Of a stretch of 64,000 nt of DNA, positions 61,005 through 61,525 are shown one piece after another; position 1 is the stretch's first letter, and each line of letters starts with the position of its first letter. Location of the stretch: positions 868,001 to 932,000 of the forward strand of contig NZ_CP073084.1 of NCBI RefSeq assembly GCF_018137985.1, written 5' to 3'. This DNA comes from Streptococcus oriscaviae (GTDB taxonomy: Bacteria > Bacillota > Bacilli > Lactobacillales > Streptococcaceae). The notes under the pieces are model-generated. The model worked only from the letters and a program-made list of their open reading frames with translations, made no database searches and had not been told where the DNA came from. A program made the translations under genes and the position numbers.

Positions 61005-61502
61005 TTATTTGACTGTCGTTAACAGGTAGTCTCCGCTGTTGAGCTGACTTTCTTGTGTGACTAAAATGTCTTCATAATCAGCAGTATTTGTAACGATAAT
61101 TGGAGTAATAATCGGAAGACCGGCTGCCTTAATGCCATGAACATCAAATTCTAATAGTTTTTGTCCAGCTTCAACCTTGTCACCGACTGCCACAAAGGAC
61201 TCAAATCCTTTACCAGCAAGGGATACCGTATCCATACCGATATGGATAAGAAGCTCTGCTCCATTTTCCGTCCGAAGGCCAATGGCATGCTTGGTTGGGA
61301 AAACGAGGGTCACTTCTGCCTTGGCTGGAGAAACAAGGATGCCATCTAGGGGGTCGATGGCAATCCCCTTGCCCATAGCTCCTGAAGCAAATACTGCATC
61401 TGGAACGTCTTCCAATTTCACAACCTTACCAATAAGGGGACTTGCAAGAATTTCTTGCTTGATTTCTTTTAGCTCTGGTACAGACTCCTCAGGAGTCTCC
61501 AC
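61005..61502 (-). CDS. Beta-glucoside PTS IIA domain (-1 frame extension of IIBC)
   Basis: Up to 165 residues if begun at GTG 61502, whose first base is the last base of the IIBC stop. Glucose-type IIA: MGKGIAIDPLDGILVSPAKA, and the phosphorylated His in ELLIHIGMDTVSLAGKG. The nearest GGAGG is 18 bases from GTG, too far for normal initiation, and the first residues ([15 protein letters not shown]) look like an interdomain linker. A -1 shift at A AAA AAG in the IIBC end gives a continuous IIBCA chain, the usual form of this transporter; so this is more likely a domain than a gene. Confidence 0.85.
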   Translation of the reverse strand: METPEESVPELKEIKQEILASPLIGKVVKLEDVPDAVFASGAMGKGIAIDPLDGILVSPAKAEVTLVFPTKHAIGLRTENGAELLIHIGMDTVSLAGKGFESFVAVGDKVEAGQKLLEFDVHGIKAAGLPIITPIIVTNTADYEDILVTQESQLNSGDYLLTTVK

Positions 61503-61525
61503 TACTTTTTTTCAGTTGGTCCTCC
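61482..61525 (-). promoter_or_regulatory. Programmed -1 ribosomal frameshift signal (candidate)
   Basis: On the minus strand in order: GGAGG (61525-61521), 9 bases, slippery heptamer A AAA AAG in the zero frame (61511-61505), TAG stop directly after it (61504-61502), 6-base spacer, perfect 7-bp hairpin AGACTCC-TGA-GGAGTCT (61498-61482). Spacing and elements equal those of the E. coli dnaX -1 site. Product of the shift reads ...[10 protein letters not shown]... into IIA. Confidence 0.75.

Follow-up and report, generated by a model that had tools for sequence, protein, structure and literature searches.

How does a beta-glucoside PTS permease obtain its IIA domain when the reading frame of its IIB and IIC domains closes just before the IIA domain begins? 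This question is raised by the bglP gene in the window, by which we mean the whole stretch of 64,000 nucleotides that was analysed, and which comes from a genome assembled as one contig and 99.99% complete. The glucose-family domains IIB, IIC and IIA were all found in the permease by Pfam (Table 1). The open reading frame of IIBC has 485 codons and ends in TAG (61504-61502), and the IIA domain is full-length in the -1 frame (PTS_EIIA_1, E 2.4e-50), which runs for 166 codons counted from the slip. The best NCBIfam match of the permease, TIGR01995 (PTS-II-ABC-beta), lies under its cut-off. bglP is preceded both by a gene for a LicT/BglG antiterminator and by a probable RNA target of such a protein, a match to Rfam bglG-cis-reg with an E value of 0.0017 and 33.5 bits, which is under the gathering score of 80. 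The permease frame has its first ATG at 62959, within this match, and the real start of bglP is therefore probably a later ATG near 62914 (MAKDYTD...), 15 codons after the start of the open frame. The next gene after the IIA frame on the same strand (59162-60844) belongs to the carboxylesterase family and, by its appearance, presumably carries a lipoprotein signal.

Table 1. Coordinates of the bglP junction and of the surrounding features in the window
Feature	Position	Strand	Basis or conservation
Putative slippery heptamer A_AAA_AAG, in the IIBC zero frame	61505..61511	minus	Invariant in 7/7 reversed-type genes
Zero-frame TAG abutting the heptamer, terminates IIBC	61502..61504	minus	Invariant in 7/7
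Shine-Dalgarno-like GGAGG, 9 bases 5' of the heptamer	61521..61525	minus	Only GGAG invariant, 7/7
Stem-loop, 7 bp with a 3-base loop, 6 bases 3' of the heptamer	61482..61498	minus	Pairs kept; fold stability
bglP IIBC frame, beta-glucoside PTS permease	61502..62959	minus	Pfam PTS_EIIB and PTS_EIIC
IIA domain, -1 frame, linked to IIBC by the proposed shift alone	61005..61505	minus	Pfam PTS_EIIA_1
LicT/BglG-type antiterminator, 5' of bglP	63114..63965	minus	Pfam CAT_RBD and two PRD
Probable antitermination element of the LicT/BglG type, 5' of bglP	62923..63054	minus	Rfam bglG-cis-reg

The 3' end of the IIBC frame reads TAC GGA GGA CCA ACT GAA AAA AAG TAG. A first-pass annotation of this DNA had proposed a programmed -1 frameshift at this place, and its description of the junction was accurate: the frame does end in GAA AAA AAG TAG, with the heptamer in the zero frame and the stop following at once, exactly where it had been placed; the hairpin of 7 bp and a 3-base loop was recovered six bases downstream (AGACTCC-TGA-GGAGTCT, 61498-61482); and the -1 frame leads into a complete IIA domain. 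The heptamer is of the X_XXY_YYZ type and lies in the zero frame, as expected of dnaX-type frameshifting, and TAG closes the zero frame at the heptamer where the -1 frame stays open. The spacing of six bases falls within the 5-8 bases at which the stem-loop generally follows the heptamer at such sites (PMC4066793, in part). When 61504-61470 was folded, three outer pairs were added to the stem, and the resulting structure of -14 kcal/mol had a z of -2.3, with 6 of 200 shuffles equally stable. These three extra pairs (61475-61504) cross a mismatch and are missing from some of the 30-base folds made for the relatives. We also considered the hairpin as a transcription terminator and rejected this, because the terminator scan found no terminator-like site at 61482-61498. 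Compared with synonymous recodings, the hairpin was more stable in all six distinct reversed-type sequences (p <= 0.01), and the Shine-Dalgarno-like element of these sequences reached p values of 0.05-0.15. The claim that the four elements of the dnaX set are all here with the right spacing thus stands as to presence and distances, and is less firm as to the GGAGG, which appears to be the weakest of the junction elements, with modest support as a Shine-Dalgarno sequence.

Is the break peculiar to this gene? The IIBC protein was sought in 284 Streptococcus genomes, one per species, and 80 of them had a match at 1e-150. The A_AAA_AAG-TAG-hairpin break was present in seven genomes of the 284 (the window's own, G257, G258, G243, G249, G179 and G261), at the loci L001 (the window gene), L006, L007, L008, L015, L021 and L023; we refer to these genes as the reversed type, as slipping would here make the long product. 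A DNA pattern of heptamer, stop and hairpin, in which the loop and the two bases after the stop were free and the Shine-Dalgarno element was left out, matched exactly in these same seven of the 284 and in none with one to three mismatches, and backwards control patterns had no match across the 284. For four of the seven genomes a counterpart was identified among named contigs (S. suis strains 15, 2256 and DE512T1 and an uncultured Streptococcus); these counterparts look like the same assemblies and so do not amount to an independent check. The seven genes are not mere copies of each other: among the six distinct sequences (L007 is near-identical to L006 and was dropped from the third-base and synonymous-recoding analyses), base identity in IIBC is 69-80% in 14 of 15 pairs, and 95% between L015 and L023. 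Over 621 aligned codons the third base is invariant in 76 of 394 codons with an invariant amino acid and in 19 of 215 with a variable one. Two 14-codon windows at the junction each contain ten invariant third bases, the maximum of the gene (mean 2.35, sd 1.78), which points to selection on the RNA beyond that on the protein, with no covariation in the stem. The codon of the loop is a good illustration, as it specifies E, Q, K, K, A and V in the six sequences, yet G is kept in all of them at its third base, a stem position. The stem pairs of the reversed-type relatives do not covary because the stem hardly varies: six of the seven pairs are the same throughout, and L023 has lost the other. The first-pass annotation had called for this comparison of the junction among relatives, and it came out mostly in favour of its proposal, as A7, TAG and hairpin are kept as a unit in seven genomes, several of them well diverged.

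Such conservation bears on the suspicion that the frame break is an accident, a degraded gene or a sequencing error. It is true that close relatives are fused and that the reversed type is rare (7/284), but an identical break followed by the same hairpin recurs in seven genomes, and the near-complete single contig of the window's own genome makes an error there improbable. Moreover, the IIA frame has dN/dS values of 0.03-0.19 at dS of 0.7-2.2 (ten pairs from five of the seven relatives, L007 and L023 being left out), which indicates that it is under strong purifying selection. We regard an accident as scarcely credible. The duller alternative offered by the first-pass annotation, that one A was lost from a tract of eight, fails as well. 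The close relatives L010, L011, L014, L019 and L020 are fused in frame and carry the identical A7G run, and the difference in frame between broken and fused genes is located just 3' of the seven A; the loss of an A was rejected on these grounds.

Could IIA instead be translated from a start of its own? It had been stated that IIA has no usable ribosome site, and this is correct in so far as no start is conserved, although a GTG is a formally possible start in the window. This GTG overlaps the stop (TAGTG) in the window and L008 only; the corresponding codon is GTT in L006, L007, L015 and L023, and GAG in L021. Counting codons after the slip from 0, there is no in-frame start before 37 in L006 and L007 and none before 43 in L015, where the first one falls inside the IIA domain, whereas the first start in L021 is TTG at 23 and in L023 GTG at 5. 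No ATG, GTG or TTG near the beginning of IIA is common to all seven reversed-type genes, and a separate IIA start was rejected for this reason. Two genes, with IIA made alone by coupled re-initiation at TAGTG or from another start, would suit the window and L008, but the late or differing starts of the other five, and an invariant heptamer and stem that would go unexplained, make this very unlikely. Slippage at the heptamer would be the sole route to IIA that all seven genes share.

The explanation that we favour, with a probability of roughly 80%, is that programmed -1 ribosomal frameshifting, as in dnaX, operates in bglP and yields both IIBC and IIBCA. The hairpin six bases on and Shine-Dalgarno pairing behind would hold ribosomes at A_AAA_AAG. 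Ribosomes that do not slip would terminate at TAG and release IIBC, and those that slip one base back would go on through the linker (in the window VVETPEES...) to IIA, producing IIBCA, a single mRNA giving both forms of the transporter. Frameshifting would account for the zero-frame phase in which the heptamer lies, for stops being found to either side of it, for the distances between the elements and for third bases being under selection. That slippage takes place, that it is ribosomal, its rate, the fixed ratio of products proposed by the first-pass annotation and the importance of both products are what we infer from comparing these sequences. The main caveat is the second lysine tRNA. Slipping is favoured, though not by definition, where AAG is read solely by tRNA-Lys UUU, and the window's own genome has tRNA-Lys genes of both kinds, TTT (in tRNA clusters) and CTT. 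The latter is a stand-alone gene (L184, G000:C1:1303551-1303623); the tRNA scan covered 21 of 30 loci, drawn from 57 tRNA matches. As a CUU tRNA-Lys should hold AAG firmly, slipping on this codon would be expected to be damped. What counts for ribosomal slippage in this cell is a three-copy element of the same genome (L299, L300 and L301), which has GGAG and A_AAA_AAG at the junction of its two frames; the zero frame is open for 156 codons upstream and 21 downstream, and the -1 frame for 299. It carries an HTH_21 domain, which is typical of IS3-family transposases, and IS3-type elements are established users of ribosomal frameshifting.

More questions are raised by the fused relatives. Of 109 distinct linkers, some of them from other permeases or from other genera, 17 carry an in-frame heptamer: six of these are broken, ten are fused BglP-type linkers and one is from ScrA. 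The majority of the 109 are fused and have no heptamer, and the device would thus be lineage-specific. The first-pass annotation had named relatives mostly carrying A8 in a single open frame as evidence against itself; the close relatives have no A8, and what holds of this objection is that most linkers are fused, without the heptamer. The ten fused BglP-type linkers have the classical dnaX polarity, which is reversed in the window. Their -1 frame stops two codons past the heptamer in L010, L011, L014, L019 and L020, after one codon in the distant L022, L024, L033 and L092, and after seven in L136. L140, also a BglP-type linker, has A_AAA_AAA in frame and a -1 stop four codons on; this gene and likewise L136 are possible weak cases. 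For nine of the ten fused genes with the heptamer the other elements were tested, and the Shine-Dalgarno sequence reached p < 0.1 in four and the hairpin in two, so that there is little sign of a hairpin in this group (2/9). The two polarities are found in close orthologues, as the broken L015 and L023 are 94-95% identical in IIBC to the fused L014, L019 and L020. On a tree of IIBC (24 rows) the broken label needs four changes, at least three of them forced, and on the tree of IIA it needs three, at least one forced, L034 being counted as broken in both. In view of these counts the short junction may have been exchanged between lineages. A plasmid search gave one short match, which was set aside. 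L034 (also L090; G218:C62, a 74% complete draft) has nine consecutive A, and its IIA is in the -1 frame; the cause could be transcriptional slippage or a faulty assembly, or this could be a second case of reversal.

Does the same device occur in other sugar permeases? A ScrA-type gene of the window's own genome (G000:C1:1670480-1672354; TIGR01996 is the best NCBIfam match, at a score slightly below its cut-off) has in its linker (L143/L247, G000:C1:1671842-1671867) GGAG, ten bases, A_AAA_AAG and a -1 stop after one codon, followed by a fold of -20 kcal/mol with a z of -4.3; the polarity is classical. ScrA-type matches are present in 232 of the 284 Streptococcus genomes, and we read the linkers of the 30 closest loci and of 40 others, picked non-randomly among the matches listed. 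In this sample of 70 the in-frame heptamer was found in 33 (21/30 closest, 12/40 picked) and 37 were without it. Every one of the 33 has its -1 stop exactly one codon on, across ten peptide contexts. The probability of heptamer and stop arising from codon usage is 0.003-0.06 per context, and the contexts are not independent trials, as the sequences are related. Pairs of lysine codons are spelled xxA AAA AAG in 33 of 35 cases in ScrA linkers, against 4 of 67 in the 45 long open frames of the window, and in one of these four the -1 frame stops one codon on. On a tree with poor resolution the ScrA heptamer requires 14 changes, at least four of them forced, which means that it was repeatedly gained or lost. 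Shine-Dalgarno strength reached p < 0.1 in 14 of 30 genes with the heptamer versus 1 of 36 pseudo-sites, which had been placed in ScrA linkers that lack it. The corresponding figures for the hairpin are 10/30 versus 3/36, and dinucleotide shuffles of 27 distinct sequences gave a mean z of -1.46, a value that has no control; a hairpin is accordingly not general in ScrA. TreB, a third family of like layout, has A_AAA_AAG in none of 28 linkers and was rejected as a further frameshift family; 3 of its 31 loci have no IIA nearby. A search of the window's own genome with a wider Shine-Dalgarno, heptamer and stop pattern returned five matches, and its backwards control also five. Two of the five matches end in TGG, which the pattern allows and which is no stop. 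The ScrA match alone lies deep in a long open frame, with 476 codons upstream, the others having 14, 2, 2 and 2. A stricter version gave one match, which was not ScrA, and one control match. With equal numbers in the control, the pattern alone is no evidence; its position in a linker is.

The spelling of these lysine pairs also helps to judge whether the frames are joined in transcription, with RNA polymerase inserting an extra A at the A7 run of some transcripts. In Thermus dnaX the polymerase slips on nine A (PMC5009743, in part; PMC1088944, in part), and two lysine tRNAs have been suggested as the reason (PMC5009743, in part), so the two kinds of lysine tRNA present here, as in Thermus, and the nine A of L034 at the same linker would fit such a process. 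However, seven A is a short run, and ScrA has six or seven. A large proportion of genomes show selection against runs at a length of nine, productive slippage has been suggested for runs of eight in two organisms, and in some bacteria shorter runs perhaps slip (PMC1088944, in part). The phase kept in the ScrA pairs also speaks against the polymerase, because phase matters to ribosomes and not to the polymerase. We consider transcriptional slippage improbable.

Is the IIBCA product needed at all? A real, low-level slip might merely be tolerated, IIBC being the working protein and other permeases supplying IIA. None of 15 ScrA-type genes fetched from outside the genus (ORFs of 472-505 codons, chosen for short open frames) has an IIA match within 800 bases, which suggests that it is common for an IIBC to have no IIA of its own, and the window's own genome also has an IIBC-only permease, L002, with no IIA found beside it. 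Two fused ScrA-type genes from outside the genus (L267 and L268) were without the heptamer. The mechanism in this case overlaps with that of the explanation we prefer, and what differs is the importance of the long product. As the constraint on IIA, stem and heptamer is far above background, mere tolerance seems unlikely to us, if less so than the other alternatives. Under programmed frameshifting the likely purpose would be to make fewer IIA domains than transport domains, which would suffice because one IIA can phosphorylate several IIB partners. The mix of IIBC and IIBCA could also alter how strongly the permease phosphorylates its antiterminator.

How does bglP compare with known frameshift genes? 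The IS3-family orfA/orfB junction, including that of the element in the window's own genome, shares with it GGAG, A_AAA_AAG and a -1 shift that gives the long product, but belongs to a mobile element and makes a transposase. The stem of E. coli dnaX is longer than the hairpin of the window. This gene, which encodes tau and gamma, likewise combines A_AAA_AAG, an upstream Shine-Dalgarno-like element and a downstream stem-loop, and makes two products with a common N-terminus (PMC3711429, in part; PMC5009743, in part); its -1 stop one codon after the heptamer is also that of the 33 ScrA and four of the fused BglP sites. In contrast to E. coli dnaX, the window gene codes for a sugar permease and not a polymerase subunit, its slip would make the long product, and its streptococcal host has the second lysine tRNA. 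The dnaX genes of a few bacteria are also described as reversed in polarity, with Chlorobium phaeobacteroides named as one unpublished candidate (PMC5009743, in part), and there too the zero-frame stop is at the shift site and the long product comes from slipping; bglP is a different gene and has both polarities among close orthologues. The carboxysome gene csoS2, with 50% -1 frameshifting, is another cellular, non-mobile gene with a long and a short form, but it has a different function, its slip gives the short form, its stem-loop is more complex and it apparently has no 5' Shine-Dalgarno element (PMC5009743, in part). No published case of frameshifting in a PTS gene was found among titles and abstract openings, a search with supplements, most subscription papers and preprints outside its range, and the words 'PTS' and 'phosphotransferase' are absent from the main text of PMC3711429, PMC4066793 and PMC5009743 (the last in part). 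The mechanism is known, and its use in sugar permeases appears to be new.

The frameshift proposed for bglP of the window would belong to a pattern shared more widely by BglP and ScrA genes. We lean slightly towards the view that streptococci set the ratio of IIBC to IIBCA in both families by dnaX-type frameshifting in the linker, that this was gained or lost several times, and that the polarity in BglP differs between orthologues 94-95% identical, which would be understandable only if both forms are wanted; the occurrence of both polarities in such close relatives is what suggests a need for both products. How A_AAA_AAG slips despite the CUU lysine tRNA is a question that this view raises. 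If it is true, broken genes that would otherwise be annotated as pseudogenes, or as pairs of genes, would each be a single gene that makes two products, and a fused gene credited with one protein would give two. Sugar uptake, one of the core pathways of bacteria, would have its subunit stoichiometry set by programmed frameshifting, in two gene families of a genus to which both pathogens and food bacteria belong.
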